Positions 15,361 through 54,100 of a DNA stretch of 64,000 nt are shown here, in pieces; the first letter of the stretch is position 1, and every line of letters starts with the position of its first letter. A program made the position numbers and the translations under genes. The DNA comes from Liolophura sinensis (taxonomy: Eukaryota; Mollusca; Polyplacophora; Chitonida; Chitonidae): assembly GCF_032854445.1 (NCBI RefSeq), contig NC_088302.1:41234191-41298190 (forward strand), in the 5' to 3' direction. Below the pieces are notes generated by a model. That model did no database searches. It was given only the letters and a program-made list of their open reading frames with translations, and was not told the DNA's origin.

Positions 15361-15972
15361 ATATATAATCTTAGATGTGGCGGGCGTATCAGTCATTAGC
15401 AGGAGCTTAGAATGCGGATTGTTCTTGAGCTTCTGTCGAACCTCTGCCTTTTCGCTCTCGGCCTCGATGATGTGGTACTCCTCCAGGCTTTCGTTGAACG
15501 AGTGCCGATCTTTGCAGTGGAATAAAGCCACGCACCTTGTCTGCTCGCGAAAGTCTTTGAGGGCGGCGTTGTATTTCTGAGTGAGGACCCAGACGCTTTG
15601 CTTTGCATGACGGCCCGAGAAAGCCATGAATGACAGCATTTTTTGTTTCTTCTTCATCGCCTCCAACACGCTACAATCATCGATGATGTATAGGGTGGGC
15701 TCCCCCTCGAACAATCTGTAGAAAGCTCTCAGGCAGTCGTTGAGGCGCTCGCCGGGGTCAAAACAATAGACCTCAGGGTCAGACAGTATCCATCGTCGCC
15801 GGTACGCCTCGTTATGCTTAAGAGTGGGGCACAGGATCACAATGTGATAAAAGAAACCGCGGAAAGGGCCCTCAAGCAGGTCCAGCACGAAGACTGTTTT
15901 GCCGCAGTTTGTCTGCCCACAGATAATCGCGCAGTTGGCGTCATCAATAAAGCGCGCTAACGAATCTACCAT
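15358..15972 (-). CDS. Polinton FtsK/HerA-type genome-packaging ATPase
   Basis: 204 aa, intact. Walker A is GQTNCGKT (residues about 19-26), and Walker B is LYIIDDCSV (about 93-101). A sensor-like SVWVLTQKYN segment follows. This family pumps viral DNA into capsids. The length is typical for Polinton ATPases. The start at 15972 overlaps the end of the major capsid gene by 29 nt on the same strand, as expected for a compact virion operon-like block. Confidence 0.88.
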   Translation of the reverse strand: MVDSLARFIDDANCAIICGQTNCGKTVFVLDLLEGPFRGFFYHIVILCPTLKHNEAYRRRWILSDPEVYCFDPGERLNDCLRAFYRLFEGEPTLYIIDDCSVLEAMKKKQKMLSFMAFSGRHAKQSVWVLTQKYNAALKDFREQTRCVALFHCKDRHSFNESLEEYHIIEAESEKAEVRQKLKNNPHSKLLLMTDTPATSKIIY

Positions 15973-17209: not shown

Positions 17210-17235
17210 TGTGTGTATTGAAGGTATACCTTGCA

Positions 17236-19824: not shown

Positions 19825-19867
19825 CTATCTATTGAACCTAAAAGCCTCGTTCTTCATCGTGGCTAAG

Positions 19868-20527
19868 ATGTTCATCACATTTACTGACATTCTAAATGGG
19901 GCACAGAACACGCTGCCTCATGCCCTTAACAACCTCGACAGCCGCCTTAAAACCGCTCTTTGCGAGATAACATCCTACCCGGCCTGGGTGAATATCCCCT
20001 CCGGAGTGGGCTTCTTGCTTGAGGGCAAACATGTTGAAGTGCCGACGGGCTACTACAATGTCTGTATGCTGGACAAGGGTATATTCCGCCCGCATGGGGT
20101 TTCTCTGGAAATGAATCAAGCTACGGGCCGCCTAGTCCTTACCTTCCCTAGAAATGCCATCAGAACGCTCCTAGAGCTTGCCCCCATCTTAGGGTTCTCC
20201 AACGGGAATATGCCTATAGAGGGGACTGTGGAAGGTGATAAGCCATCTAACTTGGTCCCGCAAAAAGAAGCCTTTGTGCATTTAGGTGAACTGAGCACCT
20301 CAGAAAACGTGAGAATAACCTCTGGTTTCAGTGGCGGTTCCACACTACTTCAGGCCATCGCCGTGACTGGTGAAGGGATTAAGTGCGGGAAGACGGTTTC
20401 ATTTCCCAACCCACAGTACAAAACCTTGCGCGCCGACTATATAACGCACTTGACCGTGGCGCTTTTAGACAAAGACGGCAAGTATATGAATGTAGGGTAC
20501 CTCTGTGCTACCCTAGAAATACCCTAG
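19868..20527 (+). CDS. Polinton minor capsid (penton, single jelly-roll type)
   Basis: 219 aa from the ATG at 19868 (MFITFTDILNGAQ). An in-frame ATG at 19820 would add 16 residues that overlap the divergent ORF. Gly/Thr/Val-rich beta pattern with PAWVNIPSGVGFLLEGKHVE and a regular C-terminal part (THLTVALLDKDGKYMNVGYL). The frame is intact. Assigned as penton protein from position next to the capsid module and general sequence character; the fold should be tested by structure prediction. Confidence 0.62.
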   Translation: MFITFTDILNGAQNTLPHALNNLDSRLKTALCEITSYPAWVNIPSGVGFLLEGKHVEVPTGYYNVCMLDKGIFRPHGVSLEMNQATGRLVLTFPRNAIRTLLELAPILGFSNGNMPIEGTVEGDKPSNLVPQKEAFVHLGELSTSENVRITSGFSGGSTLLQAIAVTGEGIKCGKTVSFPNPQYKTLRADYITHLTVALLDKDGKYMNVGYLCATLEIP

Positions 20528-20530
20528 AGT

Positions 20531-21167
20531 ATGGTGGACGCAGCCGGTCCCAGGTCTGCGTGCCTGTCTTTAAGCGACTTGGCAGATGTGTCGGAGTACG
20601 AAATTCCAGGTCAGGAAGGAAAAATCTACGCCTTCCAGTTTCAAAGTGGCAAGTACAACCGCAAAAAGATTACGGGGGGGGGGGGCAAGCAGAATCTGCC
20701 ACGTTTGCTTCCCTTGAAAATGTCTCATCCTCTGCAGAGCAAGAGCGCAGGTCGCCGTCTGAGGTGATTGAAAAACAAAAACTCTCATTAATTCGCTTTG
20801 AAGACCGCTTTGTTCTTACTAGAGCTCGCGACCCCGATTGGGTGATAGATGTGAAGGTGGCCCCAATGTCGGTCCAGACCACCAGGGCCGATGTGAAAAA
20901 AGTTTTCAGCGCCTGTCTTGTGGCTTTGGAAAGAGCAGGTTACTTCACACTAACTGCGGCGCCGGGTGTAGAGACCGTGCGTCTTGAGACCGTGGGGGGG
21001 GGGGGGGCAACCCAGTCATCCACAGCTCTCTCGAGGATATACGAGTCTTTGCAGGGGACATTTTCAATCTCAATGAAATCTATTTAGAGTCCGGTATAAG
21101 ACTTCGCCGCCTTCGTGTTAGTAAACACGAGGACAATTTAGAGTTTACCGACGTTATTGATTCGTAG
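20531..21167 (+). pseudogene. Polinton ORF interrupted at two long G tracts
   Basis: Starts MVDAAGPRSACLSLSD at 20531, 4 nt after the minor capsid stop. Coding sense moves by -1 at a run of 12 G (20674-20685) and again by -1 at a run of 14 G (20994-21007). It ends at TAG 21165-21167 after residues such as NEIYLESGIRLRRLRVSK. Each side of both tracts reads as plausible protein. Three readings are possible: slippage mutation, frameshifting on the G runs, or sequencing error in homopolymers. The product would be about 210 aa; function unknown. Confidence 0.6.
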
Positions 21168-21195
21168 GACGGACAATACCGACGATTACGGATGA

Positions 21196-21807
21196 CCATC
21201 CCTTGGCCCCGACGATTATGAAAACCCCCCGACGGCGCCGCCGGAGAGCGTGGCGCACGCCCATCGTCTGCAGTATATACAGAATGAGCTTGAATCTGAG
21301 CGAGATCTCCGTCGGGCCTTGTACAAAAAGTACCGGCGCGGTGTCTTAGACGCCGAGGCCCTTGATTCAGCCACGCTCACGGCCTGTTTGGGACTAGGGG
21401 TTGCAGGCGTGTGACTGCTCTCAACAATAATTGCAGCCCCTGCTGTCTTGGCCATGGAAGCTGCGGCCCTAGCTTGCGGTGTCTTAAATGTCGCCGGAAA
21501 ATTCGTTAGCCGCCGACTTCACGCAAAGGCCAAGAAACATAACGATATACGGCTGCTGGCTGAGACCAAACTTAACAGCATCCGTGCGCAGGTATCTACG
21601 GCATTATCTGATGGTGTTATTTCGGACGTACAGTTCAAGCAAGTCGTTCAGGAGCTCAAGAACTACTCTGATCTGAAGCAGAAGATACGCGCTAAGTCTC
21701 GTAAGGCATTCAACGCCGTAGAGATCGATGAAAGCACGAAAAAACAGCTTATAGATCGCGGCCGAAAACTAGCTCGGCAAGAGCTGAAAAACGCTATTTC
21801 CGAATGA
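21196..21807 (+). pseudogene. Last Polinton ORF, hydrophobic-centre helical protein with in-frame TGA
   Basis: The frame is open from 21196 and carries an acidic/basic helical N-terminal part (QNELESERDLRRALYKKYRR). A hydrophobic centre follows (LGLGVAGV, then LLSTIIAAPAVLAM), split by TGA at 21412-21414. The C-terminal half is long, basic and helical. An upstream ATG at 21192 is in another frame and would need a shift in the CCCC run after it. The part after the TGA has its own ATG at 21454 (119 aa from 21448). Recurrent Polinton ORF of unknown function. Confidence 0.6.
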
Positions 21808-25600: not shown

Positions 25601-27203
25601 TTAGGATTGTATGCTCAGGGTTTGCCAGTTTTCATCGTAGACAGTTGCATATATAACACCTGTGTTTTTATATGATTGCATCGTATATACTATTACTCTT
25701 AATACCCTGATCTTTGTATCACAAGACATGTCACTTTTAAGTGAGACTTTACCGTCACAAATAAATGGCTCAAAAACCTTCATAACATTATCCTGTGAAT
25801 TCTGTGTACAATCTACCGGTGGAGTCTTAACATAATCAAATGCATCAACATTGTTCACTATGTCAGACTTTCTAGCAGTAACACACAAACCAGTAGGCTT
25901 GCAGCCACCCTCCTGTTCTTGCCTTCTCTTTAAAGCATAACAATTTGACATGTCATGGCCTGGCTTCCTACAAAAATTACACGTAACCCTGCTGAACTGT
26001 CTATCAGTAAATGTATGGTCAGACCTTCGTTGAGTAGTGTTCGAATTAACAGGTCTTCTTTGATCACCTGATTTGTCAAAATTTTGAGTCTGTTTCGGTG
26101 GGCCTGAATTTGAGTTAAAAGAACTGCTGGAAAAGGGTTGAGGCTTTCTAAATGTAGACGGCTTTTTCTGAAATGAGACCTTATGTGTAACCGTGTAAGT
26201 ATCGGCCATAGTGGCTGCTGCTTCTAATGTATCAGCGTCTTTGTCCTCAATGAAAGTTCTGACATCATCGTTAATACACCTTTTAAAGTCTTCAATCAGG
26301 GTGATCTGTTTCAACTTTTCATAATCATTATCTACGCTTTTAGCATAACACCACTGTTCAAACAATTGTTCCTTCTGCCTAGCAAATTCAATGTAAGTTT
26401 GATTTCTTTTCTCAGAATTTCTAAATTTCTGCCGACAGGCCTCTGGCACAAGCTCATATCTTTTTAAGATAACATCTTTCACAAAATCATAATCTGCAGC
26501 CTGTTCTGTTGATAACTCTGTGTAAATATCCATAACTTTGCCAGTTAACACACTCTGTAAAAGGGTAGTCCAAAACTTTTTAGGCCACTCTAAATTTTGA
26601 GCAATCTTCTCAAACTATAGAAAATATTTATCTACATCAGTCTCACGAAATTGTGGCACCAATCTTATGTTTCTAGCGACATCAAATTTTGGAGGCATAT
26701 CAGAAAAAACTTAAGCCAGACCTATCTCCTTCTAGTCTCCTCGCTTCAATTTCGCTCTGAAGTCTCAGTTTCTCCAATTCGAAAACCCTTTCATTTTCCC
26801 TTTCTCTAAACAACCTTTCATTTTCATTTTCCTTAAACAATCTTTCTTTTTCATTTTCTTTAAACAATCTTTCATCTTCCTTTTCCTTTTCTTTAAACAA
26901 TCTTTCATTTTCCTTTTCTTTAAACAATCTTTCATTTTCCTTTTCTTTCAGTTCTAACTCCTTCAGTCTTATTACAGTGGAATCATCGCCCACAGTCCTG
27001 TACGCATCTAATGCACTTTCATCAAACTCCTGTAATTCTACCAAACATTTAGCAATACTAAACTGCATATATTTCTTGCGTAAGGATCTTTTGATATTAA
27101 GATTCAGGTACTTGCTTAAAGCATACAAATCATTCTTATTTAACACATCAAAAATGTCCTGATCTGGCGCTTCCATAAACTCGTCGGGCTTAAAATCCGA
27201 CAT
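25601..27203 (-). pseudogene. LTR-element Gag with zinc knuckle, broken
   Basis: First segment 27203-26700: MSDFKPDEFMEAPDQDIFDV, then a helical run of repeated KENERLFKE units (coiled coil). The frame then changes near 26660-26700 and a TAG occurs near 26616. The second segment stays open to 25601: a capsid-like helical region (DYDFVKDVILKRYELVPEAC, IEFARQKEQLFEQW), a basic linker, and a CCHC knuckle CNFCRKPGHDMSNC. The tail (FEPFICDGKVSL) looks like the approach to an aspartic protease, but no catalytic motif follows. Confidence 0.75.
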
Positions 27204-31270: not shown

Positions 31271-34200
31271 CTACTTATTCCAGCTGTTGATCTCCTCGAT
31301 TGTTTGAGGTAACTCTTTGTCCACGGTCTCCGCCAGTAGAAACAGGAGAAAGCCAACGCCAATACAACAGCTGCCGTAAATAGTGCCGGGGAGCCAGGGG
31401 TAGTAATCAATCTACAACGTCACAAAAAACACAACAGGCCATAGAACATAACACAATATACAATATCACAAAACATACAACAGGTGATAGGGCATAACAC
31501 CATCTACAATATCATAAAATACACAACAGGCCATAGAGCACAACAAAATATACAATATCACAATACACACAATAGGTAACAGGGCATAACATAATCTACA
31601 ACATCACACCACACACAGTAGGGCATAGAGCATAACATAATATACAATATCACAAAACACACAATAGGTAACAGGGCATTACATAATCTACAACATCACA
31701 CAACACATAATAGGTCATATAGCTTAACACCATGTACAACATCACACAACACACATCAGGTCATAGAGCTTAACACCATGTACAACATCATACAACACAC
31801 ATCAGGTCATAGAGCATAACACAATGTATAACATCACACAATACACAATAGGTCATAGAGAATAACACAATGTACAACATCACACAACACACATCAGGTC
31901 ATAGAGCATAACACAATGTACAACATCACACAACACACATCAGGTCATAGAGCATAACACAATGTACAACATCACACAACACACATCAGGTCATAGAGCA
32001 TAACACAATGTATAACATCACACAACACCCAATAGGACATAGAGCATAACACAATGTATAACATCACACAATACACATCAGTGAGTGAGTGAGTGCTTGG
32101 GGTTTTTCAGTCATATGACGACGAAGGAATCATTAGGGTGCATGCACGTGTAATGTGCCTCCTTGTTGCAGGACGGATTTCCACCGCTCTTTTATTTAGT
32201 GCTGCATCACTGAGACGACTTACCGAAGGCAAGTAAGCCGCCCCGCCCGAGCCATTATACTGATACGGGCCAACCAGTCGTTGCACTATCCCCTTCATGC
32301 TGAACGCCAAGCGAGGAAGTTACAACTTCCTCTTTTAAAGTCTTAGGTGTGACTCGACCAAGGATTGATCCTGGATCTACCGGTCCCGAAGCGGACGCTC
32401 TACCAACTGTGCTATCCGGGCCGGTGCAATACACATCAGGTCATAGAGCATAACACAATGTACAACATCACACAACACACATCAGGTCATAGAGAATAAC
32501 ACAATGTACAACATCACACAACACACATCAGGTCATAGAGCATAACACAATGTACAACATCACACAACACACATCAGGTCATAGAGCATAACACAATGTA
32601 TAACATCACACAACACCCAATAGGTCATAGAGCATAACACAATGTATAACATCACACAATACACAATAGGCCATAGAGCATAACACAATGTATATATCAC
32701 ACAATACACAATAGGTCATAGAGCATAACACAATGTACAACATCACACAACACACATCAGGTCATAGAGCATAACACACAATACATAGGGTATAGGATAT
32801 TCAACATCATGAAACAAACAAAGAACATAACACAATGTACAACATCACACAACACACCCTAAGCCAGGACATGATACAATGTACAACTTACGTAACAAAA
32901 CATCATTAAAACACACAATAGATCGCGGGGCGAAAATAATCTACAACATCATAAAACACACAGGCCTGTGGAATTACACAATATGTAGCATTACAATACG
33001 AATAGACTACATCATGGAGAGTAAAACCAGAACAGCCTGGAGAGTAAAACACACAACAGGCCCCACACAAAGAACGAGAGCGACAGTGCCAACATATAGT
33101 CACAGGAGTGGTCCTGATAAATGCTTAGATAGCTAACCTTGTCAACTTTTGATAATTTTGATTCCAGACTAATGTATATTGTATGAAAGCAGAAATTCTC
33201 TGAGGTTGAATAGACCTGCTCTGTTATATCGAAAGTTCGTACGTACCACAATTGTGGCGAACGGAGCCAGCATCCCACCAATCCGAGAAGCCGATGATGC
33301 AATGCCTAGACCAACACTCCTAAGAAATTATAAATCGTCATTGATTTGATTGATTTGTCAGGTATGGACAGTTTGTTGCGATATTGTACATTTGTCAGAT
33401 CAACTGAGTCAGGTGGTTAACCCACAAAACAGAATACCTAGGGGAAGCACCAGGAAATGGGAGTTACATAGGATATTTCCATATACACGGTGGATATCAC
33501 TGGACACGACTGGTGATTCCTCTCTTTTTGAGATATTATATTATATATAATTAAAATTATCAACTATATCTATATATATCTTGAAGAAATGGAGGAAGAT
33601 CCCCTGGTGAGGCGTTTTATTATATTTTTTTCTGGGGGAAATGGTGACAACAGTTGGGTTAGGAGCTGGTCGTAATTGAGTGAGTGAGTGAGTGAGTCCT
33701 TAGGGTTTAACGCCCTACTTAACAATTTTTCAGTCATATGACGATGAAGGAATCCTTTGAGTGCGTGTAATGTGCCTCCTTGTTGCAGGACGGATTTCCA
33801 CCGCTCTTTTATCTAGTGCTGCTTCCCCGAGGCGCCTTACCGAAGGAAAGTAAGCTGCCCGAGCCGTTATACTGATACAGGTCAACCAGTCGTTCACTAT
33901 CCCCTTCATGAACGCCAAGCCAGGAAGTTGGAACTTCCTGTTTCAAGGTCCTAGGTGTGACTCGACCCAGGATTGACCCTGGATCTACCGCCCCAGAAGC
34001 GGACCCTCTACCAACTGTGCTATAGGGGCCGGTAAATTGTAATTGTGGGTGATCGGTATTGACTGTTCGATATTAAAAAACCTAACATTTTGTAATTGTA
34101 CCAGGCGCACAAAACTTGATACAGTTTGTTGATTATGTTTCGGCATTTGTAATGTTGCAAATCCGACAGGTTTTTAACCCTTCTGTCTTTTCTGTGTTCA

Positions 34201-37200
34201 AAGTGAACACTCTGATGTATCTCAGGTACAAATTGATATACATAACAGGTACAAATTGTACAAATGGCACAAATTAGATTTAATATATACTCCACAAAAA
34301 TGGCAGCGTGAAAACAGAGTAGTCGGTAATCACAGTCCACGCTTTTCGTGATGCTGACGGTAGACACACTCGGTTTCACTCTGTTGGAAACAGTTCCGGT
34401 GTTCACAGGAACAGCGATTCCCAGGACATGGAGATGCCGAACTTACCCACCACTGTCAGTTCCGTCACCCAGCTAGAGGGGCCTGCCGCGAGAAACACGT
34501 GCGGTGGGGTGGGGTGGGTTTATGAGTGGTGGTGGAGGGGAGTTGGCTTGTCTTACCTGAGATTGGTGGGAAACAGTTCCGGTGTGCACAGGAACAGCGT
34601 TCCCCAGGACATGGAGATGCCGAACTTACCAACCACTGTCAGTCCTGTCACCCAGCTAGAGGGACCTGCCGCGTGAAACACGTAGGAGTGGGCTCGGGTG
34701 GGGGGATGAAGGGTGGTGGAGGGAAGTTGGCTTGTCTTACCTGAGGTTGGTCGGATACAGTTCTGGTGTGTGCTGGGATAGTGTTCCCCAGGACATGGAG
34801 ATGCCGAACTTACCGATCACTGTCAGTCCTGTCACCCAGACGGAAGGACCTGCCGCGTGAAACACGTAGGAGTGGGCTCGGGTGGAGAGATGAAGGGTGG
34901 TGGAGGGAAGTTGGCTTGTCTTACCTGAGGTTGGTCGGATACAGTTCCGGTGTGTACTGCAACAGTGTTCTCCAGGACATGGAGATGTCAAATTTACCGA
35001 CTACTGTCAGTCCCGTCTTCCAGCTAGAGGGACCTGCCGCGAGAAAAGCGTTGGGGGTTGGTGGTAAGGGTGGGGTGGGGGGGGGGGGGAATGTAGGGAA
35101 GTCGGCTTGTCTTACCTTAGTTTTGTGGGATACAGCTCCGGTGTGTACAGGAACAGCGTTACCCCGGACATGGAGATGCCGAACGTACCGACCACTGTCA
35201 GTCCTGTCACCCAGCCGGAAGGACCTGCGGCGTGAAACACGTTGGAGTGGAGTAGGGTGGGGTGAGGGGTGGTGGTGGAAGGGAGTTGGCTTGTTTTACC
35301 TGAGGTTGGTCGGATACAGTTCCGGGTGTACTGGGACAGTGTTCCCCAGGACATGGAGATGCCGAACTTACCGACCACCGTCAGTCCCGTCACCCAGCTA
35401 GAGGGACCTGCCGCGTGAAACACGTTGGAGTGGGGTCGCGTGGGGGGATAGGGGGTGGTGGAGGGAAGTTGGCTTGTCTTACCTGAGGTTGGTCGGATAC
35501 AGTTCCGGTGTGTACTGGAACAGTGTTCCCCAGGACATGGAGATGCCGAACTTACCGACCACTGTCAGTCCCGTCACCCAGGCGGAGGGACCTACCGCGA
35601 GAAACACGTGATAAAAATTGGGATAATCAGTAAAGTGGTTATGGTCGTGTGTTATGTATGGGCGGTCATCTTGAAACAAGTGCATATGTAATGAATGAAC
35701 TTATCCGTTAATGTAATGCAATTGTAAATATATTCTGAAGACACACAAGGCAAAGTTTGACTTTCTACAATATAACTTTGTTAGAAAACTGTTTGAACGC
35801 TGCTAGTAAATGTTAGGGGCTGTATAAGGCTAAACATGAACATGGCAATTTAGAATGAAATTCTAACAGAGGTAAATGTAAATCCACGAGAGTCCGTATT
35901 TTATAGACTTCTGGAGGCCACATGACCAGTATCACATTTGTTGCTGTTTTGGTTGTAGTCTCCACGGTTTAGCCTTTTAGGCTGTACCCCTGCATAAACT
36001 AGAATTCTGTTGACGGAAATAAGCATCTGGGAGGCCTGGTGCATTGTTTTCGGGCAATTTTCATGTTTATTAAGTGTGATGACAATACATAAATTACAGT
36101 TAACATCAGTGCATTTTTACCTATTTAATAGTGCTTATGCCATGGTGCTAGTGGATTTATAAGTTTCCACTCTTTGAACATTACATGAACAGTTAGAATA
36201 AATATAAGCGTCATGTCCGACATTCGTATACCATTCGTACTCCGTAAAGGGCGTTCCAAGTCGATAATCGCGAGATCCATTTCCAAAACAACGTTTAACA
36301 CTGGTACTCAAAGACAAAGGTATGTAAGAAATTATACAAATAGGAAATAAAGCGGGTAACGCACAAGAGAGAAGCGGTCATCAGTTTTCATTGATGGTAA
36401 TAGTGGATACACCAGGCATGAATTCCACACCAGAGTTCACATTCGTAGTCCATGAATGAGTTCCAGGTCAGATAACAATTAGACAAGGTATTTCAGTCGA
36501 GCTTTGATTGTAACTGTTCATAAAGGCATTATGCAGATGTAATGAGCATGGCTGCCTTACGGTCCCAGGTTAAGCGGTATTAGATACAGTTCGAAAATGG
36601 ACGAGTTTGTTTTACTCTTCATGTTATAGTTTGTCATGTTATACACGGGTAAAATATCGAACCACCAACGAAATAAATGAGACAGTAGCAGGCCTATTTT
36701 CTAGCTGATGAACTAATCTCTACTGAGGACCTATCTAGCTCATACCCAAGTATGTGTTGATAAGGGCCGCTGAAAGTAAGGCGGATCCTGCGATGAAGTG
36801 GCTCACGATACACGTCGTCCTACGGCCGATTCTGTGAACATATATCAAGATTGTGGGTGGTTGTCTTACCCGTTTTTTTCCTGGGTCATTTGAAGATTGT
36901 CCCAATGTCGGATTATGTATAGCACGGTCCCACTAGGTGTCCGTGCCGACGATACAAAACATTACGCTTCAGCCATATCAATAGTGCAATGTCACCAATT
37001 CCTTTCTCTATGAGTTCAAGTCCAGCTCATGCTTGCTTCCTCTCCGCCGTACGTTGGAAGGTCTGTCAGAAACCTACGGCTGTGCCCGGTTTCCACCCAC
37101 CATAAATGCTGGCCGCCGTGGTATAAGTGAAATATTCTTGAGTACGGCGTAAAACACCAATCAAATAAATAAAAAAATCAATAGTGCATGTCATTGTATG

Positions 37201-40200
37201 AACGAGATCTTGGCCCCCTCCCACCCCCGACTCCCCTCTTAAACTACGCATCAAACCAAAGAGCAATCAAACTATCAGTATTACAACCTCAGATATTGCC
37301 TGACTCTATTTTTCAGTTACGAGTTCATACCTTGGCGAGGTTGGCCTACAGCACCAGCTATTAGCATATTACGGATTATAATGAAAAACATTTGACCCGA
37401 ATTTGGATAATAACACGTGTGTCGAATATTGTTCTAGTTTTTGGGAGAATATGGATTGATACCAGATTGTGCTCGATTCTGGATTTTAACACCAGCGTAA
37501 GACAGAGTTCAGGAAATAATATAAACAGCTTCAGAAAGAACCTGAATTGTTAAATCCGCTTCTGGTAGATGTTGGGTTATTTTTTGCAATTATCACCCCT
37601 GCTCTAGTTTTACTCTCGACGCTGTAGGCCTGTCATTATATAGCACTAGCGTCTGAGGGAGTTGAGTTTGTAACACTAACTTATGAAGAAGGTTTTGGTT
37701 ATAACATTACCATATAAATTTTGGGTAATAACACTAGCTTTTGTGAGAGTGTGAGTTATATCATCAAGTTTTGATGGAGCTTGTTTATAACAATAGTTTC
37801 TGAGACACTTTTGGTTATAACACCAGTCTCACTTCTCACCTTTGCATGGCAATGTAGGAAATGATTGCAGCTGGTAGATTGACCACTGAGATGAGGAAAT
37901 AGTTCATGAATCTGTCTCCAGAGAGTTTGGCCGCTGTCAAGGAGAGGCCGAAAGAGGTCCCGGCATTGACGATCCTGAAAAGTACCAAATTACAATGGCG
38001 TAGTGCATAAAACTCACCTAAGCTTTACCCAAATGCTCATTACAGAACTCAACGTTGTTATATCTTGTTATGAAGTGTATTCTATATCAAAAATTGATAA
38101 AATAGTAAAACTACCAGTCACACAGACATTTATTACCAAGTAAAAAGCACAATAAAAGCTGTCCTTCGAAGTCTTGTGTGCCGAAAGATATCCAATAAGT
38201 TGGGCTTCCTGTCTTTCTTGTCGGCATGTTTGTTTAGGCTGTTTTGAGAAGCATGGAGGACTATGGACTCGGACATACAGTCCTCTGCCACATCTTTGAT
38301 GTCATCCGGGTGAATACCGTTTATCTTGGCCGCTTTTTTAATGATACGCCTGGCTTCCTTCGTCCTTCCGTTCGCCAGCAGCCATCTCAAAGATTCGTCT
38401 AAGAACCTAAATAAAATAGAATGGGACCGGTTTATTCCATAAGTCAATACAATGTCAAGATAATTCAAGTATTCACTGGGTTTTGTGACAACAAGCGGTT
38501 AACGACCTGTCCTTGGCTATGGATTTGTGACACTTGCCTTCCACCACTGTGGTGAACATATCTGTAAGTTACACGTGGGAAAGTTCGTTAGTTAGTTGCC
38601 AAAGTTCGGCAATTTAACATCACATCGTTAATATTTTAGCTACATGTTTTAAACACAAGGTAGTGAATGGTTTTTGATATTATGAAAAAAATATCCAAAC
38701 AGAACAAAAGTAGAGAGACATGTTACCAGTTAAAAAGAACTAAGGCTTTGTTAATTCTCGGAAACCACAATGTTTTTATAATATGTAATCCAAAAAATCA
38801 CATAAATATATGCATACATATTAAAGAAAAACTGTATTTTATTCATAGGTAAGCTACCCTCAAATATTTAATGACAACAACAATGCTGTCAAATAAATGG
38901 AATTTGTCGATTGGGTGGAACCTTTGCCGAGCACGGTCAACATAGTTAATCAGGATAGGTTTAATGCCACAAAGGATATAAACAAGAATGCCCACTACGA
39001 CACTTATTGTAAGCAGTAATCAAATTAAATGGAATAGAATAAAATTGAAAAATAAATAAACAACAAATGTTGCCGTCGGTTCAAAAAACCGTCTGTTTTA
39101 AAAAATTATAACTAAAGGTTTGGGATTGATTAAGTATGTGGGGTCACGATGTCACAACGCCCAAATGTCCGTAGTGCTCTCATAGTGACCTGCATGTAGC
39201 ATATGTACATCTGCCCGACCAACACTTTGTCAGTACTCTGGGAAGTACGGCGCCAAGCCTTGGATATCCATCAGCGACCCCAATATAGTGTCTAGCTTAC
39301 GAACAAGGAGGTACCTGTCAGGGAACCATTACTCACAACATGTTTGGTATTAGAGTGACAACAGTGGCCAACACCGTGGTGAGCTGAAAGTATCTCCAGT
39401 TATAATCCTTAAAGCCATAAGCCAATCCGACCAGCACACAGAGAAAAGATGTCCATAGTAAGTCGCCTAGTAGGTGGATGGTCGCTCTCCACGACCTGGG
39501 CAGTACCTCAAGTGGCATCACGTGTATAGACATCACGTGGCCCTAAACAGAGATTCATTAAGAGTGGTTTTACTCATAGCGGTGACAGCAAGTGTTACAT
39601 GTGTTGCAGCCATATAATTGATAACCTAGACATTCGTAATGAATGTACTAATTAATTTTAGTGAACAGCGGTATTTAATACTCAATGCTGGAAAACAAAC
39701 AAATCCATCGCCAGTTTATTATATAGGTATAAATGTGTTCATTGAAACAACTTGGAACATACCACGTGAAAATCATGTACTTGGAGCGATATTGGGTCAT
39801 ACTGTACGGTAGCAAAGGGACGTAACTTTATATGTTAAAAGCGTTTGGGGGAACTAACGTATTCATCGTTTGCTCTATGTCTCTGTGCAAAGATGGATGA
39901 GGAAATGTTGATGGAGGAAGATTTCAAGATTTGTTGAATTCAACATTCCGCGAAATACGAAAGCGAAGATCATAAGCGACTGGTGGAATAATCAAGCTCT
40001 GGATATAGGGTGCATTGCACATTGAGAACAGAGAGATTAAAAGACATATGTCTTTGGTCGTTTTTGTAAGGGAAGTGAAAGTCCATTGACTGGGACAAAA
40101 AGGTTTTGTATATTGTGGACAAATTTATAATTTATCCGGCGGCTTGTCCATTACGAGTTTTTAACACAACGTGGACTCGTACAATACCACATCCATAATG

Positions 40201-43200
40201 TAACAAAAACTTCACAATAATCTAATAATACCTAACAAGCCATATGACTTAAAATTTGGACTCATAATCAGACTTCAAGGAGTGTGTTTTTCCTGAGTTA
40301 TTTGATTGGTTTGACGCCGTATTCAAGAATATTTCACTGGAAATACGGTGGAGTCCAGATTTATGGGGAGAGGAGACCGGGCTTTGCTGCCCGGGGGAAA
40401 CCCACAGCCATCCACACGATGCTGACCGTCCACTTACGACCGGGGAGGAAGCCAGCATAAAATGGACTTGAACTCACAGCGAATACATTGATGTGAATAT
40501 AAGAGTCAAGTCCGACATTCATATACCATTCGTAGTCCGTAAAGGGCGTTCCAAGTCGATAATCGCAAGATCCATTTCCAAAACAACGTTTAACACTAAC
40601 TCCCAAACACAAAGGTATGTAAGAAATTATACAAATAGGAAATAAAGCCGGTAACACACAAGAGAGAAGCGGTCATCAGTTTTCAATGATGCCGGGCAGA
40701 CAATGAATATTCCAGGCATGAATTCCATATCAACGTTCAAATTCGTAGTCCATGAATGAGTTCCATGTCAAATAACAATTAAACAAGTATCTCAGTCGCG
40801 CTTTGATTGCAGCTGTTCATAAAGGTATCATGCTGATGTAATTAGCATGGCTACCTAACTCCAGGTTAAGCGGTATTAGATACAGTTTGAAAATGAAGAG
40901 CGTTACAGACCCTAACTGATCAGATTGTGATTCAAAAGTAACGGACGATTACGTCTTTCCCGTCAATATGTAAAGATCGCATGCTACAAGAGGCGCCATC
41001 TATGGTGTTACACATGACATACAAGATAGACGATTACACTGGGCAACCAGCGCCATCTATGTTGTTAAATACCATGTACGTGATAGATATGTACATAGGG
41101 ATAACAGCGCCGTCTATGTGGTTGATCACAATGCAGATCGCCAGAGATTCTGAACGCTCTGTCCATACCTGCCAACAAGAGCGTTATACTCATTGTAAAA
41201 TTTGGGAAACTTAGAATGAAGGCGTTTTATGTAGTATCCTTGACAAACTAGTTTTTGAACTAGCAACTTGTGACTCAGATTAAAGTCATCACAATTAACG
41301 CAAGATCTGACAAATGCGAGATATGTATACGCCATATGCAGGACCCTTTGGTATATTGCTATCTAAATAAGGATAATTTACAATATCAAAATTGAAGTTG
41401 TCCCTCTTGTCGTAAAGGCGGCGTGAAAGGAGACCTTGTTCGTCTTTGTACAGATATATATCCAAATAAGATGTACCATCAGGACTATCTGTTGTCTCCT
41501 TTAAATCCAATGAAGGTGGATAGTTCTTCTGTAAGACGTTTGGAGTTGTTAAGAATCCACATGCAGTTGACACCTGAATTTTTTGTTATGGCACAACAAT
41601 ACTTATTCCAAAATGGCTTTACTTCTTGTAACGCTCTCGTAAGTAGGGTTGACAAGAGTTTGGTGGTACAGCTTCTTGAACCTGCAATAAATCGAGCCTT
41701 GTATGGGGATTTATGCATTTTAGGAATCCAGTAAAGTTGTGGTATTTCTGTGTGACGGGTAGGTATATTTATGCGCCTTTCTTTAAAAAAGGTTTTGTGT
41801 TTGTTAAATAGTTCCCCCAGAGTACATGTAGTAGCAGAATACGTGGATGTCGTTGTAGATGCACATAACTCTTGAACAAGAATTTGATAATAATAATTCT
41901 TGCAAATAAAGATGACATGCCCTGAGTCATTACGCTGCGGGGGCACGTTAACCACTCGGCCACAGAGCACCCTAAATGATTGACTCTTTCTTGGTTAAGA
42001 TCTCCAAACGTAATGATTATAGTTTGCTTCTCGTGTGTATGATATCCATGTCAACTATGCCTTAAGAAGTCTACACGCTTGGAGAAATGAGTGAATTTAT
42101 TTAGCCAAAATACCTGTTGAACAGCGCCTAGAACGAAGCGGATGAGAGTGAAGACGAGAATACTTGGGGCGAAGGCAGTGCCCACACTGACAAAGAGCAT
42201 AATCCACTGACTGATCAAGCATATCTTCTTTCGTCCGAATCGATCCGCCAGAGAGGTGAAAAAAGTAGCCCCTACACCCTGACCGATGACAAGAACGGTT
42301 TGAGTCAGCTGTGCTTGATAGGTCCTGTCACACACCAAGTCCCACTGAAACAGACGATGTGTAAGATTAAACTGAAGTCACACTTGAAATCTGAAACAGA
42401 CGATGCGCAAAATTAAGCCAAATACACGTATCATCTTCCAGTAAAATTTCCCATTTTCAACATCAAATTCCTCTGGGATCTCTGTGCAAGATTATCTCAG
42501 AGTCACCTATTAAGTCCCACTAAATGACAACAGATGCTCGAAAGACAACTCTAAACCTCTATAGTCAACTCTTTTCATGTGACATTTATCATACTAGCGC
42601 TGCACTGAATGGCCATGCCGTCCCACACCGGCAGAGATAGGATCTACTCACAATAGGCCTATTCGCACTTGGTTTATGCCCTACTCTTTTTATCACTTGA
42701 GCGCCAAGCAAGAGCGTCACCAAGACTGCAGAAATTGGTTAAAGTATTAGCTGTGGCGAGTCTTGGAATTGAACCCCGATTCTCTCCCTTACATGACGGA
42801 CAATCTCGTCCGCCACTGTGGGTCTAGTCTGCGTATAGAGTTTCGTTACCTCGGTGACGAGGGTGGAATATTTGTGTAAATCGTAGTCATAGCCCGAGCG
42901 ACAACGTCCGGTCTCCGTCATAGTGCCATTGCTGTAGTCTTTAAGTTCCACACACGTCTTGTGATAGGCAGTGTCAACACTGATGTTGGGTGTCGGGTTT
43001 ATGTGAGACTGGGACGTCATATTCACGACGGACTGACACCGCAACGGAGGCTGGTAACCTGATAAACACCAGATTGCATTGAGCCATTTATTAGACAATT
43101 ACGTTTCATGTCAGTTTAAGAGGACAGCCAGCTTTAGAGGAAACCTGAAATATTGGCGAGGAGCTTCGAAATAGTTCATGGACAAGCCCCTGCCACCTGG

Positions 43201-45333: not shown

Positions 45334-48028
45334 GCTGAATAGAACTGCAACGTCATCGCATTGAAACACAGTCACTAAATTAGAAAAAAGAGACAAATGA
45401 GTCCAAGTTTCTGTCATATTACACTGTGGATGATTTGCCCTTCCATGGGAGAATTGTATATATTAATATATGTTACTTCAAAATGTGTACTGAAAGCTAA
45501 AACAAGCAAACTTAAACAAACTATGTAATTTTGGCACATTATCACTTTGGAAAAACAGATATATATATAACTTCGTGACACTATATCATGTGATCTGGAA
45601 AAGCAAAATCTTTGAGAAATAATCAAAATTCACAACCTTTCGACAATTGCAGCCATGGTTGCATAGGTGCAGAAAATACAATACCGACGTTGCAGAAAAA
45701 ATGTTATCAAAAAAGACCATTATTTCAGTACATGTGGCAATAACATTTGTACTACAAAAACCGCCTACGCTAAGTAACTCTCATAAAAGGAATTGAAAAC
45801 AATAAAAGGAACTATATGTCAAACTCCATGAAAAATGGCCAGGTGGTTGGATTTATTTTAAAGTTGAAGTCGACGAAGTTTGTCAGGCGGCTCCATTTTA
45901 ATGGACTGACGAGTCCATCTAAGGAAGCTAACTAATAAACATATAAATATGTAGGCTCAAGGACGGTAAACACGTAGGCCCTATATTTATAGTAATGTGC
46001 ACCGGGAAAATGGCAATTTACCATGTTTAATTTACCGAGAAAATATACTACACAAGGCACTCCTGACACTTGGTATTCTTGGTACTCCTGATATGTGGTA
46101 TTCTTGGTAATCCTGATATGTGGTATTCTTGGTAATCCTGATATTTGGTATTCTTGGTACTCCTGATATTTGGGATTCTTGGCACTCTTGATATTTGGTA
46201 TTCTTGGTATTCCTGATATTTGGTATTCTTGGTAATCCTGATATTTGGTATTCTTGGTATTCCTGATATTTGGTATTCTTGGTAATCCTGATATTTGGTA
46301 TTCTTGGTATTCCTGATATTTGGTATTCTTGGTAATCCTGATATTTGGTATTCTTGGTATTCCTGATATTTGGTATTCTTGGTAATCCTGATATTTGGTA
46401 TTCTTGGTATTCCTGATATGTGGTATTCTTGGTAATCCTGATATTTGGTATTCTTGGTATTCCTGATATTTGGTATTCTTGGTAATCCTGATATTTGGTA
46501 TTCTTGGTTCTTCTGATATGTGGTATTCTTGGTAATAATGATATTTGGTATTGTTGGTAATCCTGATATTTAGTATTCTTGCTACTCCTGATATTTGGTA
46601 TTCTTGGTAATCTTGATATGTGGTATTCTTGGTAATCCTGATATTTGGTATTGTTGGTACTCCTGATATGTGGTATTGTTGGTACTCCTGATATTTGGTA
46701 TTCTTGGTAATCCTGATATGTGGTATTCTTGGTACTGCTGATATTTGGTATTCTTGTACTCCTGATATTTGGTATTCTTGCTACTCCTAATATTTGGTAT
46801 TCTTGGTAATCCTGATATTTGGTATTCTTGGTAATCCTGATATTTGGTATTCTTGGTAATAATGATATTTGGTATTCTTGGTAATAATGATATTTGGTAT
46901 TCTTGGTAATCCTGATATTTAGTATTCTTGCTACTCCTGATATGTGGTATTCTTGGTATTCCTGATATTCGACATTCTTGGTACTCCTGATATTTGGCAT
47001 TCTTGGTACTCCTGATGTGTGGTATTCTTGGTAATCCTGATATTTGGCATTCTTGGTACTCCTGATATTTGGCATTCTTGGTACTCCTGATATTTGGCAT
47101 TCTTGGCACTCTTGATATTTGGTATTCTTGGTATTCCTGATATGTGCTATTCTTGGTACTCCTGATATTTGGCATTCTTGGTATTCCTGATATTTGGCAT
47201 TCTTGGTACTCCTGATATGTGGCATTCTTGGTACTCCTGATATGTGGTATTCTTGGTATTCCTGATATGTGGTATTCTTGGTATTCCTGATATTTGGTAT
47301 TCTTGGTACTCCTGATATGTGGTATTCTTGGTACTCCTGATATTTGGGATTCTTGGCACTCTTGATATTTGGTATTCTTGCTACTCCTGATATTTGGTAT
47401 TCTTGGTATTCCTGATATGTGGTATTCTTGGTATTCCTGATATTTGGTATTCTTTGTATTCCTGATATGTGGTATTCTTGCTACTCCTGATATTTGGCAT
47501 TCTTGGTACTCCTGATATGTGGCATTCTTGGCACTCCTGATAATTGGTATTGTTGGTACTCCTGATATGTGGTATTGTTGGCACTCCTGATATTTGGTAC
47601 TCTTGGTTCTCCTGATATGTACTATTCTTTGTATACCCAATATTTTGTATTGTTGGTACTGCTGATATTTGGTAATCATGGTATTGCTGATATTTGGTAG
47701 TTTTGGTATTACCGATATTTGGTATTGTTGGTACTACTGATATTTTATAGCCTTTGTACTGCTGATATTAGTATTCATGGCACTCCTGATATTTGGTATT
47801 CTCAGTACAAATATATAAATTCTTTTGTATACTTTATCTGTAGTTTTTATATTTTACTAAGAACGTCTTACAATGTTACTTACCTAGATATATGTAGATA
47901 TAAAGTTGAAAACAGGCAGGGAAGGACAGAGATTTAACCAACACCATCTGCAGGATCTGGTAACTGCCCCATACTCCTAGCGACTTGAATAACTGGTCGA
48001 TCTTCTTACCCTGGGTGTCTATCGACAT
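31271..48028 (-). CDS. SLC22-like (organic cation/anion) transporter gene B, ten exon positions, with exon 8 array
   Basis: Plasma-membrane major facilitator transporter of the SLC22 type. Exons (minus): 48028-47884, 43058-42850, 42344-42114, 39542-39337, 38406-38137, 37974-37840, 36831-36746, one of the exon 8 copies (the one nearest exon 7 is 35591-35483), 33319-33247, 31411-31271. All have GT-AG sites; the joined length is 1605 nt, 534 aa. Landmarks: TM1 in exon 1; a glycosylated extracellular loop in exon 2; TEWDLVCD at the exon 2/3 join; DRFGRKK in exon 3; ESLRWLLANGR with the large cytosolic loop in exon 5; IGRRTT in exon 7; ELYPT in exon 8; TM11-12 in exons 9-10. Exon 8 occurs seven times, of which five are usable. 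The substrate cannot be told from sequence. No disabling changes were found outside exon copies a and f. Confidence 0.88.
31412..32870. repeat. 46-bp minisatellite in intron 9 of gene B, abutting exon 10
   Basis: About 25 copies of a 46-bp unit (CATAGAGCATAACACAATGT ACAACATCACACAACACACA TCAGGT), split by a SINE at 32082-32428. The unit nearest exon 10 supplies the splice acceptor: its TACAACAT-type segment reads TGTAG followed by ATTG on the minus strand at the exon edge. A shorter, related array occupies the same place in gene C (51322-51800). Confidence 0.9.
32082..32428 (-). mobile_element. SINE family 2 copy inserted in the minisatellite
   Basis: Minus orientation: tRNA-like head near 32400-32428 (TAGCACAGTTGGTAGAGCG on the minus strand), B-box-like GGATCAATCC, and a tail ending in CACTCACTCACT repeats. 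It lies between the words ACAATACACATCAG of the flanking array and a repeat of CAATACACATCAG on the other side, which looks like a target duplication. Confidence 0.85.
33678..34034 (-). mobile_element. SINE family 2 copy in intron 8 of gene B
   Basis: Same family and orientation as 32082-32428, from a GTGAGT-repeat tail through the GCTCTTTTATCTAGTGCTGC body to the tRNA-like head at about 34015-34034. Confidence 0.85.
34375..34482 (-). pseudogene. Exon 8 copy a of gene B, decayed
   Basis: The most distal copy. Acceptor CAG is present before 34482, but the frame meets a TGA after SLFL, and no GTAAG donor is found where the other copies have one. Probably a truncated end of the array. Confidence 0.85.
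34557..34665 (-). CDS. Exon 8 copy b of gene B, intact
   Basis: 109 nt with acceptor CAG and donor GTAAG, open frame. Relative to copy g: Ser after PS; FLCTPELFPT in place of FQYTPELYPT. Confidence 0.85.
34741..34849 (-). CDS. Exon 8 copy c of gene B, intact
   Basis: 109 nt with acceptor and donor, open frame. Differences from copy g: PSVW, TVIGK, and SQHTPELYPT in the last third. Confidence 0.85.
34925..35033 (-). CDS. Exon 8 copy d of gene B, intact
   Basis: 109 nt with acceptor and donor, open frame. Differences include PSSWKTG (a Lys entering the helix start), KFDIS (Asp for Gly) and SWRTLLQYT. These charged changes make this copy the most unlike the others. Confidence 0.83.
35116..35224 (-). 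CDS. Exon 8 copy e of gene B, intact
   Basis: 109 nt with acceptor and donor, open frame. Differences include VVGTFGIS, MSGVTLFLYT (Trp and Gly replaced by Gly-Val) and PTKLR. Confidence 0.85.
35300..35407 (-). pseudogene. Exon 8 copy f of gene B, 1-nt deletion
   Basis: 108 nt: one base is missing in the stretch near 35327, so the frame shifts after SQY. Splice sites are kept (CAG acceptor, GTAAAA donor). Confidence 0.87.
35483..35591 (-). CDS. Exon 8 copy g of gene B, intact, nearest exon 7
   Basis: 109 nt; acceptor CGGTAG, donor GTAAGA. Encodes GKFGISMSWGTLFQYTPELY with the ELYPT motif, nearly identical to the single exon 8 of gene C (53819-53927). Confidence 0.9.
35592..36745 (-). other. 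Intron 7 of gene B
   Basis: Non-coding. Includes a dispersed repeat copy (about 36125-36200) joined to a 390-bp repeat (36205-36600). Confidence 0.6.
36205..36600. repeat. 390-bp dispersed repeat, copy 1
   Basis: Very similar to 40495-40895 through most of its length (CCGACATTCGTATACCATTC, AAGGGCGTTCCAAGTCGATA, CATGAATGAGTTCCA). A diverged copy lies near 53085-53400. Non-coding, without clear terminal repeats; could be a non-autonomous element. Confidence 0.75.
37012..37178 (+). mobile_element. SINE family 1, 5'-truncated copy
   Basis: From the B-box-like GAGTTCAAGTCCAGCTCATG through the tail GAAATATTCTTGAGTACGGC and AATAAA repeats. The tRNA-like A box is missing. Confidence 0.8.
37430..37839. 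repeat. Degenerate repeat at the start of intron 6 of gene B
   Basis: Loose repeats with GGTTATAACACCAG and AGTTATATCATCAAG motifs, beginning right at the exon 6 donor. Clearly related to the long array at the same place in gene C (55380-57007). Confidence 0.65.
38407..39336 (-). other. Intron 4 of gene B
   Basis: AT-rich non-coding sequence; no recognised element. Confidence 0.6.
40297..40485 (-). mobile_element. SINE family 1 copy in intron 3 of gene B
   Basis: Minus orientation: TTGATTGGTTTGACGCCGTA tail first, then body to GGACTTGAACTCACAGCGAA. The A-box part is lost. Confidence 0.8.
40495..40895. repeat. 390-bp dispersed repeat, copy 2
   Basis: Close copy of 36205-36600 in intron 3 of the same gene, directly after the SINE. 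Confidence 0.75.
40990..41145. repeat. Tandem repeat of about 60 bp, three diverged copies
   Basis: Three units each starting GCGCC(A/G)TCTATG followed by a GATAGA-containing stretch. Intronic, non-coding. Confidence 0.7.
41295..41970 (-). pseudogene. Penelope-like reverse transcriptase fragment
   Basis: Two overlapping frames on the minus strand. 41970-41485 has PQLYWIPKMHKSPYKARFIA and SCTTKLLSTLL, the start of an RT domain. 41573-41295 has SYLDIYLYK, LYDKRDNFNFDIVNYPYL and PAYGVYISR from its C-terminal part. The catalytic YxDD region between them is missing, and a frameshift lies near 41500-41570. Non-functional remnant in intron 3 of gene B. PLE assignment is from the LPK/HK-type motif; a related RT class is possible. 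Confidence 0.65.
42345..42560. repeat. Intron 2 repeat of gene B with copies of the exon 3 acceptor
   Basis: Starting at the exon 3 acceptor, the sequence repeats AAGTCCCACTGAAACAGACG-like words at irregular spacing. On the minus strand each word resembles CTGTTTCAG plus the first bases of exon 3. Confidence 0.6.
43425..43600. repeat. Dispersed repeat, copy 3
   Basis: ACTTCTAGACCAGTGACGTC, CTTAAGCCATGGTCCTAG and TGAGAATAAAGCTCTAACTG motifs; counterpart of 22990-23165. Confidence 0.55.
43679..43748. repeat. (TA)n microsatellite
   Basis: About 35 uninterrupted TA repeats. Confidence 0.98.
44209..44537 (+). mobile_element. SINE family 2 copy in intron 1 of gene B
   Basis: Plus orientation: GGTAGATCCAGGATCAATCC (B-box-like), body with GGAAATCCGTCCTGCAACAA, and tail TTGTTGAGCACGACGTTAAA followed by CACTCACTCACTCA. 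The 5' A-box part is truncated. Confidence 0.85.
45259..45330. repeat. (AT)n microsatellite
   Basis: About 36 AT repeats. Confidence 0.98.
46040..47770. repeat. 25-bp minisatellite in intron 1 of gene B
   Basis: Roughly 68 head-to-tail copies of a 25-bp unit (TGGTATTCTTGGTACTCCTG ATATT). Variation is confined mostly to TGGTA(A/C/T)TCCT and ATATT/ATATG. There is no stop codon in long stretches of more than one minus-strand frame, because 25 is not a multiple of three and the unit lacks stops. It ends about 120 bp from exon 1. Confidence 0.95.
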
Positions 48029-51156: not shown

Positions 51157-54100
51157 TTAAATACTCCTCTCTGTTGTTCTCTTCTTATCCCAGCTGTTGA
51201 CCTCCTCAATTGTTTGAGGCAATTCTTTGTCCACGGTTTCCTCAAGCAGAAAGAGGAGGAAACCAACCCCAAGACAACAGGTGCCATAAATAGTGCCGGG
51301 AAGCCAGGGGTAATAATCAATCTACAACGTCACAAAATACACAACAGGTCATAGACAATAACACAATATACAATATCACAAAACACACAACAGGTCATAG
51401 GGCATAACATAGTATCCAGCATCACAAATACACAACAGATCAGGGCATAACATAGCATCCAGCATCACAAACACACAACAGACCAGGGCATAACATAGTA
51501 TCCAGCATCACAAACACACAACAGACCAGGGCATAACATAGTATCCAGCATCACAAACACACAACAGGTCATAGGGCATAACATAATCTACAATATCACA
51601 AAAACACACAACATGTCATAGGGCATAGCATAGTATCCAGCATCACAAACACAGAACAAGTCATAAGGCATAACATAGTATCCAGCATCACAAACACACA
51701 ACAGACCAGGGACAAGCACAATATACAACATCATAAAGCAGACAGTGTATCACAGGCATAACACAAAATACAGCATCACGAAACACACAGCAGTGCAGGC
51801 CATAACACAATATACCACTGATCAATGTTGTACAATTGATCAACAATCACAGTGTGTGCTGATCAATTGTCATAACAGTGAACTGACCGTTGTTCACACA
51901 AGGTGCAGACCAATGACGAGATCAGTTTAGCCAACAGGTGTTACAGCAGTGTACTGATCAATGATCAGTGATTCGATGATTGTGCACACGTCAACGTAAG
52001 ACTAAGTCTATAGATCAGTGATATCTCGAATCTGGTGATCATGATCTCACGAACGCGCAAATCAATGATCACCACTCACAAGAGTGTGCTGACCAATAAG
52101 ACACACGAGTGTAGAGGTCAACGTCAGCGTACCACGAGTGTACAGATCATTGATCCCAGGACTGTGAAAATAAATGGTTCTAAAACACAAGAGTACTAAG
52201 CAATAAGACACACGAGTGTAGAGGTCAACGTCAGCATACCACGAGTGTACCAACGACGATTGGTCCCACGACTGTGCAACTTAAATGTCAAAAAACATAA
52301 ATGTACTGAGCAATAATGCCTTCATCATTTATCGCACGGGTAACAGCTCGACTTGTTGATCAATAATAATCCTGCAGTCTACTGCGAATATGGATTCCAT
52401 ATTCATGGATATTTTGTGAGCTATCAAACATCTGAGGTTGAGTTCTCTGGTAAAATGTCCAAGAGTGTGTGAATAATTGTGGTAAAACCAGAAAACGAAA
52501 ACAGTTACAAGTCCTCATAAATGTACGTACCACAATAGTGGCGAACGGGGCTAGCATCCCACCAATCCGAGAAGACGATGAAGCGATGCCAAGACCAACA
52601 CTCCTAAGGAAATATAAAGCGTCAGGTTTGAATGGTCAGGTATGGACAGCCTATTACCGTATGGTACCTTCAGTTAATATTGGGAACTGGTGTTTTATTT
52701 TGTTTAGGAAGTGAGCTTTATTCGACTTGGAACGCCCCTTCTCTGTCTATAGGTGGGATAAACATTCCAATGATGGACACAATGGTTCCTGGAAACTAGC
52801 GGTACACTCATAAAATAAGATTTATTTATTTCATTAATGTTTTACGTGGTACTCAAGAATAGACAAAACAAGTGCTGCAGATTATAGTATTGAAGTTTAA
52901 TTTCTAAATACCTTGTGGGAAGCATCGGAAACGAAGGCAGGCTTCTCTGTAGCTTATATGTGAGCAGAAATATTTAATCTGTATGTAACAGGAATTTAAA
53001 GAAAACACCTGCTTCCAGGTTGTTGAGAGCAAAGTTGTTGCAAGTGTTGGCGCTTAAATGGCGCTTAAATATTCAAATTTAAGGGTTAAGTCCGACATTC
53101 GTATCCATTCGTAAGCCATTAAGGGGTGCTCCAAAAGCCATTTCCAAAAACAACCTCAAGCGTAGTTACCCAACGGAATATGTAATAAATAATTATGTAA
53201 ATAGTCAACGAAGGTGAAACATATAAGGCAGAAGACAGTCTATATTTTACGCATGTTAGCCAGTTCAAATCTCAAACTCGTAATTAGTGAATAATTTCCA
53301 GGTCGAATATTCATACAGACATTTCATTCGCGCTTTGATCGTAACTCTTCATAGACTTACCATTCTGATGTCGTAAACATAGATGTGTATACGGCCTGGT
53401 AACTATTGTAATTGTACCAGTCATGGAATATTCCACCATACCAGTTGTATAAAAATAGTCAGATGATTTGGCAATATGGTGAACCTAAGCGTCAAGTCCG
53501 ACATTCACGTACCACTCGTCGACCATGATCCAGATCGATATTCCCAAACCTATTTCCACAAACAACTTTGAGCCACGGAAATGCACGACAGTTACAAATT
53601 CAGATATACATGTACATACACTCGGAGGCATGAATTGTGATGTATCGCAGATACAGATTTCGATGTGCCGTGGGCACAGGTTGGTTACACAGGATTTTCA
53701 TGAAGACAGTCTGCGTCCAGGGCCAGTGTCAACAATCTTGTCCCATGTTACAGCTCGCCGCTTTCATCTAAGGCACAAACCGAGAAGTATCGATGGATGT
53801 ATGTATTGCTTGTCTTACCTGAGGTTGGTCGGATACAGTTCCGGTGTGTACTGGAACAGCGTTCCCCAGGACATGGAGATGCCGAACTTACCGACCACTG
53901 TCAGTCCCGTCACCCAGCCGGAGGGACCTGCCGCGAGAAACACATGACCGTTTGTAGAATACAGATTGGGATAACAGTTAAAGAGCCTCCAGTCACATTA
54001 TTAGCTATAGGTCCTCATTTCGAAACAATCCAAATTGTGATGAACTCATCAGCCAACATATCTACATGACAACTTTTATCCTGAAGGAAGATAAGGTAAA

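Follow-up and report, generated by a model that had tools for sequence, protein, structure and literature searches.

Why would a transporter gene carry seven consecutive copies of one coding exon, and does the cell make use of more than one of them? The question is raised by a 64,000-nucleotide stretch of the genome of the chiton Liolophura sinensis (assembly GCF_032854445.1, contig NC_088302.1, forward-strand positions 41,234,191 to 41,298,190), hereafter the window, to which all positions below refer. In the gene concerned, gene B, an SLC22 gene on the minus strand, exon 8 had been described from the letters alone (the sequence-only reading) as an array of seven alternative copies. We confirmed that the array is real. 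Its layout is, from the sequence, the one expected when exons are mutually exclusive: homologous exons follow one another in tandem, alike in length and phase, free of stops and bounded by GT-AG, which five of the copies are and two are not. We propose a model in which each mRNA would take up a single copy of the exon and at least two copies would be in use across messages, a reading to which we give slightly better than even chances.

The seven copies lie in tandem on the minus strand between 34374 and 35591. Tandem Repeats Finder placed it at 34386-35609, with 6.6 copies of a period of 184 and a score of 1685, and BLASTN matched the six other copies to the first, g1, at E values of 1e-29 to 3e-44, far beyond chance. 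In transcript order the copies, which keep the letters of the sequence-only reading, are g1 (35483-35591; PSAWVTGLTVVGKFGISMSWGTLFQYTPELYPTNLR), f2 (35300-35407), e3 (35116-35224; PSGWVTGLTVVGTFGISMSGVTLFLYTPELYPTKLR), d4 (34925-35033; PSSWKTGLTVVGKFDISMSWRTLLQYTPELYPTNLR), c5 (34741-34849; PSVWVTGLTVIGKFGISMSWGTLSQHTPELYPTNLR), b6 (34557-34665; PSSWVTGLTVVGKFGISMSWGTLFLCTPELFPTNLR), and a7 (34374-34482). Their spacings are 184, 183, 191, 184, 184, and 183 nt; the period of 184 with one interval of 191 had been described, and the 191 was found, whereas two of the intervals turned out to be 183. Five copies (g1, e3, d4, c5, and b6) are intact, each with a 109-nt open frame in the same phases, an AG acceptor and a GTAAGA donor. 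The five open frames with GTAAG donors were as previously read, and so were the residue variants listed for the copies, whereas the CAG acceptor attributed to all five is present in e3, d4, c5, and b6 and is replaced by TAG in g1. The remaining two copies fail: f2 is 108 nt long, with a 1-nt deletion, a GTAAAA donor and a shifted frame when used alone, and a7, at the array edge, is degenerate, with an in-frame TGA and no GT donor (blastn matched it over 34383-34480). The six inter-copy introns, within 34483-35482, measure 75, 75, 82, 75, 75, and 74 nt in transcript order and have C-rich middles and mostly conserved ends. The array presumably arose when a 184-bp unit of exon plus intron was duplicated unequally and, given a dS of 0.15 to 0.52 among the five open copies, is not recent.

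Could such an array have been created by the assembly itself? The L. sinensis assembly, built from PacBio HiFi and Omni-C data, was first published as that of L. japonica (PMC11068029; correction, PMC12441733). Beyond the general risk that any tandem repeat carries, nothing speaks for an artefact, which we consider scarcely credible and rejected on three grounds: pairwise differences among the six better copies amount to 5 to 20%; the ~1.2-kb array is far below the mean HiFi read of 8.3 kb reported for that assembly (PMC11068029), if it is the source of this sequence; and the NCBI protein of the gene carries peptides of more than one copy. Outside the array, tblastn and blastn searches over the window (E<=1e-3) found exon 8 only in gene C, at 53819-53927 on the minus strand, as a single exon, in agreement with the sequence-only reading; it differs from g1 at 2 of 109 nt. 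Exon 8 of the other neighbouring paralogue, gene A, falls outside the window, and the NCBI proteins that correspond to genes A and C share one and the same exon 8 peptide.

The reading frame of gene B constrains how the copies could be combined. Exon 7 ends with one spare base, and exon 8 must, therefore, be 109 nt long (1 mod 3). The ten exons of the gene can be joined via GT-AG introns with matching phases, and whichever intact copy is chosen from the five, the product is 534 residues long, with no internal stop. Omission of exon 8 leads to a stop at residue 431, and when between two and five intact copies are joined in their genomic order, an early stop, between residues 466 and 525, follows in 26 of 26 combinations. 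Only f2 followed by a later intact copy keeps the frame, with 36 extra residues (4/4 combinations). Thus, f2 pairs aside, the message would be productive only with one intact copy. We propose that exon 7 is joined to one copy and this copy to exon 9; products with joined copies would be expected to undergo nonsense-mediated decay. A possible reason for neighbouring copies not to be spliced together lies in the shortness of the introns (74 to 82 nt): in four of the six (after f2, d4, c5, and b6), branch-like YTNAY sites, identified by motif match only, lie 34 to 37 nt from the donor, below the distance of 50 nt between donor and branch point taken here as the limit for steric interference. Tandem exon duplication has itself been linked to mutually exclusive splicing (PMC6071210, PMC9013439). 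From this layout, we infer that the cell could switch between copies.

What would such a switch change in the protein? phmmer aligned exon 8 to the region of OAT1 and OCTN2 that runs from transmembrane helix 10 (TM10) through ELYPTNLR, the Pfam families Sugar_tr and MFS_1 concur, and exon 8, as judged from these alignments, encodes TM10 and the following ELYPT..R motif, as the sequence-only reading had stated. With the glycine split with exon 7 numbered 0, OAT1 residues Lys431, Phe438, Asn439, Phe442, Glu447, and Arg454 correspond to positions 13, 20, 21, 24, 29, and 36 of the exon 8 peptide. The OAT1 cryo-electron microscopy study places Phe438 and Asn439 within 6 Å of alpha-ketoglutarate, describes Phe438 as stacking on tenofovir and Phe442 as being near probenecid, assigns Glu447 and Arg454 to gate salt bridges, and gives Lys431 an essential salt bridge, its alanine mutant being inactive (PMC10643130). 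Among the five open copies, 12 of the 37 positions vary, including 13, 20, 21, and 24, and the gate equivalents 29 and 36 do not. Variation at all four pocket or salt-bridge positions (the Lys431, Phe438, Asn439, and Phe442 equivalents) has a hypergeometric P of 0.0075, the set having been chosen post hoc; P is 0.028 for the three ligand-near positions and 0.073 for variation at four or more of the six OAT1 residues given above, both sets likewise chosen after the data were seen. Since the copies differ at these ligand-near TM10 positions, the isoforms may differ in substrate affinity or selectivity, provided that at least two copies are used, which is the weaker step of the model. The earlier claim that switching would change a pore-lining helix holds, with respect to the OAT1 residues described in that study, insofar as the copies differ at the Phe438, Asn439, and Phe442 equivalents; the switch itself is putative.

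Several observations weigh against the use of two or more copies, and a strong rival with one working copy remains. In a relic array, exon 8 would have been multiplied by unequal crossing-over, and one copy would be spliced, with the rest decaying slowly; the copy in use would probably be g1, which is the first in the array and the nearest to gene C's exon, or b6, the nearest to the downstream exon, with f2 and a7 already dead and d4 and e3 possibly decaying. We regard this as a serious contender that falls somewhat short of an even chance. It accords with the two broken copies out of seven and with the mere two nucleotides that separate g1 from the gene C exon. Moreover, the neutral chance that at least five of seven copies remain intact is 0.14 to 0.49; intactness alone is, therefore, not evidence of function, and we rejected open frames as proof of it. 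When only copy-specific changes are considered, 16 of 26 are replacements, with no significant deficit (P=0.14 to 0.25). Residues G15D and G21R in d4, K13T and N34K in e3, and Y26C in b6 occur in 0 of 116 to 117 homologues at the sites concerned (F24L and V5K of d4 occur in one and two homologues, respectively). The helix core of d4 is the least hydrophobic, with a Kyte-Doolittle mean of 0.10 versus 0.72 in gene C, and K13T of e3 hits the equivalent of Lys431, at which the OAT1 alanine mutant was reported as inactive (PMC10643130), so that this change may abolish function instead of creating a new one. At the level of splicing, the branch-like site after e3 lies 51 nt from the donor, and there is none in the usual place after g1. 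RNA pairing of the docking-selector type was also not found in a coarse test of duplex energies in 80-nt windows: for the six array introns against both flanking introns, 12/12 duplexes lay within 2 SD of 40 shuffled introns each (z of -1.35 to 1.84), and a docking-site/selector mechanism like that of Dscam exon 6 or MRP1 was rejected on this basis. Finally, when all six array introns are considered, 6 of 32 end columns are variable.

Other comparisons bear against a relic array and argue for selection on the extra copies. The four divergent copies each differ from the gene C exon by 5 to 6 silent and 4 to 6 replacement changes, and dN/dS estimated by counting is 0.26 to 0.37 against the gene C exon and 0.27 to 0.56 among the open copies, the comparison that the sequence-only reading had called for; with no replacement excess, positive selection was rejected. 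When each distinct change is counted once, 18 of 33 are nonsynonymous, against 22.7 to 23.9 expected (P=0.02 to 0.06). The replacements were also scored for their likeness to the family, using 118 homologues of 127 proteins (left out were NCBI protein P0001, discussed below, and eight others outside 380 to 720 aa). They are more family-like than random substitution in e3 (P=0.021), c5 (P=0.009), and b6 (P=0.007), not in d4 (P=0.11), and g1 has too few changes (P=0.14); because changes are shared between copies, these tests are dependent. In the four units compared, 2 of 32 columns are variable in the intron ends and 14 of 43 in the middles (P=0.009), although the C-rich middles may simply mutate faster. 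Moreover, despite an old divergence (dS up to 0.52), all five open copies keep GT/AG, their frame, and those Gly, Glu, Pro, Thr, and Arg residues that scarcely vary in the family, and the neutral joint chance that exactly these five stay intact is 0.01 to 0.08, for a set chosen afterwards. These patterns in the sequence moderately support selection on individual copies and, with moderate confidence, suggest that several copies have been used, the case being weaker for d4 and e3.

The public gene model of this locus adds further points against the use of several copies. Gene B matches the L. sinensis NCBI protein P0001 (solute carrier family 22 member 7-like, 692 aa), which shares with our model the 428 residues through exon 7 and the last 70 after exon 8 and differs from it only in the array part. 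P0001 is a single member sequence without isoforms, so no predicted isoform backs the cassette reading; the peptides that set g1, d4, and c5 apart are missing from it, and its peptides span array introns at 35394-35483, 35118-35336, and 34556-34768. Taken at face value, the peptides mapped across these three intron stretches would mean that copies and introns are translated through as long coding exons into a 692-aa protein with repeated TM10-like segments. We consider such a protein very improbable: it would pass through the frameshifted f2 tail, omit g1, and add TM10-like segments to the usual helix set, and the intact splice sites of five copies would be needless. Moreover, among 7,551 candidates, the read-through part of P0001 matched, besides itself, only three proteins, all of them L. 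sinensis paralogues, over 22 to 28% of its length. P0001 is probably an automatic model defeated by the array. Among the protein matches listed, covering the best 120 of 214 hits from 8,000 candidates for the whole protein, 7 hits from 572 for the five isoform fragments, and 4 from 7,551 for the array part of P0001, the only close chiton entries were NCBI proteins of L. sinensis, and no match was a possible transcript of gene B; no array in another species was apparent by name, identity, or length among these matches, the proteins not having been inspected singly.

The near-identity of g1 and the single exon of gene C raises the further question of how the array has been related to its neighbour. 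Only 1 of 29 silent sites differs between these two exons, as against 121.7 of 293.1 (~42%) in the seven other exon segments compared between genes B and C (exons 1 and 7 excluded; Fisher P=1.1e-5). On the simplest reading, this low silent divergence means that exon 8 was exchanged more recently than the genes split, and a recent exchange between the paralogues B and C is, on these sequence comparisons, probable. The alternative would be constraint on silent sites, although changes at these sites do occur among the copies of the array. Each of the remaining four open copies, too, is less divergent from gene C at silent sites (17 to 20%) than the genes at large (P=0.01 to 0.03 each). Within the array, the introns that follow d4 and c5 are near-identical (2/75 differ) and their exons are divergent (18/109; P=0.003), a mismatch that suggests that conversion or crossing-over may have reshuffled the units. 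The same three contrasts, those of g1, of the other four copies, and of d4 and c5, would fit an array that supplies, perhaps in addition, material with which exon 8 of neighbouring paralogues undergoes gene conversion, in place of alternative splicing. We give this very little weight: a single inferred exchange does not make a mechanism, tandem gene clusters undergo conversion without any array, and constraint on silent sites in used exons could contribute. Returning to mutually exclusive splicing, an elaborate form of it could be a TM10 cassette selected by splicing, with up to five transporters chosen by tissue that would differ at the Lys431, Phe438, Asn439, and Phe442 equivalents of the OAT1 structure and draw on an exon pool renewed by exchange between paralogues; in this complete form, we consider the proposal unlikely.

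The remainder of gene B places it in its family. On the minus strand, the coding part of exon 1, which starts with MSIDTQGKK, lies at 47884-48028 and is followed by exons 2 (42850-43058), 3 (42114-42344), 4 (39337-39542), 5 (38137-38406), 6 (37840-37974), and 7 (36746-36831); beyond the array lie exon 9 (33247-33319) and exon 10, which includes the stop codon (31271-31411). The 534-aa product matches Pfam families PF00083 (Sugar_tr; E=1.3e-32) and PF07690 (MFS_1; E=1.7e-23). Among the distinct Protein Data Bank sequences that match it, 26 of 43 are SLC22 members, OCTN2 being the best (E=2.7e-59), and the SLC22 structures align over approximately residues 91 to 531. By sequence, gene B is a member of the SLC22 branch of the major facilitator superfamily (MFS), putatively of the organic ion transporter type. 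Its neighbours in the window, gene A, which lies partly outside, and gene C, match NCBI proteins P0004 and P0003, respectively. Intron 1 of gene B contains a minisatellite of ~70 copies of a 25-bp unit (46059-47802), through which run minus-strand open frames of up to 482 aa, and the last introns of genes B and C carry, just upstream of the last exon, similar-looking minisatellites with units of 46 bp (31408-32778) and 43 bp (51330-51807). Approximately 70 nt downstream of exon 3 of gene C, 17 to 18 codons at 59095-59148 resemble part of exon 3, which makes this a further exon duplication within the gene cluster, of smaller size than the array.

Elsewhere in the window, we noted several candidate mobile elements. 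Upstream of gene A, a region of ~8200 to 21800, with an extent estimated from its open reading frames (ORFs), is by our own reading a Polinton-like element; two of the eight ORFs scanned in it match Pfam, one with an integrase core (rve) at 13069-13506 (E=7.8e-7, below the Pfam cut-off) and one with an A32-type ATPase (Pox_A32) at 15361-15999 (E=6.7e-7). The first intron of gene A contains an ORF resembling a DDE_Tnp_4-type transposase (4112-4699; E=4.5e-10). A gag-like open frame of 337 aa on the minus strand (25601-26614) matches the SCAN domain (E=1.3e-9) and carries a CX2CX4HX4C motif.

How unusual is the array of gene B among known systems? Tandem arrays of mutually exclusive exons are known in genes for ion channels, adhesion molecules, myosin, and ABC transporters. 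Among solute carriers, vertebrate NKCC2 (SLC12A1) has, as gene B does, alternative copies of an exon for a transmembrane helix (exon 4 A, B, and F), and it differs from gene B in that it belongs to another family, has three copies, and has been tested functionally. The Dscam clusters of insects and the human clusters of mutually exclusive exons share with gene B their homologous neighbouring exons and the one-of-many layout; their splicing has been verified, whereas the array of gene B is read from DNA. OAT1, OCTN2, OCT1-3, and URAT1, all with solved structures, belong to the same family as gene B and have in common with it the TM10 motif GK(F)...ELYPT..R, and we know of no exon array in their genes. 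In agreement with the sequence-only reading, our literature search found, among the matches listed, no exon array described in an SLC22 gene.

A close likeness is found in the Drosophila ABCC transporter gene MRP, whose exon cluster 2 is reported to contain eight mutually exclusive exons, all but one of them seen in long reads (PMC4588896), and tandem exon arrays are described as having arisen repeatedly in metazoan MRP genes (PMC6071210). Like gene B, MRP thus encodes a membrane transporter with a large tandem exon array; unlike gene B, it is an ABC transporter and not an MFS/SLC22 protein, and its splicing has been shown by cDNA. Moreover, competing complementary sequences are reported for MRP1 (PMC6071210), and none were detected in gene B. 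A second parallel is coq-2, in which, in helminths, annelids, and molluscs, the swap of exons 6a and 6e is reported to change helices and two substrate-near residues and to switch the substrate (PMC7434440). The choice of exon in gene B would likewise alter residues beside the substrate; coq-2 differs in that it has two exons only, encodes an enzyme, and is supported by RNA sequencing and by exon deletion in Caenorhabditis elegans. More generally, among the gene families with mutually exclusive events in human, fly, and worm, 6 of 12 are given as ion transporters (PMC9741552).

The public model of gene B, with its read-through of the array, probably needs correction. If at least two of the copies are used, gene B would offer a natural helix-swap set in the pocket where an organic ion transporter binds its ligand, and the specificity of this transporter would be tied to splicing.

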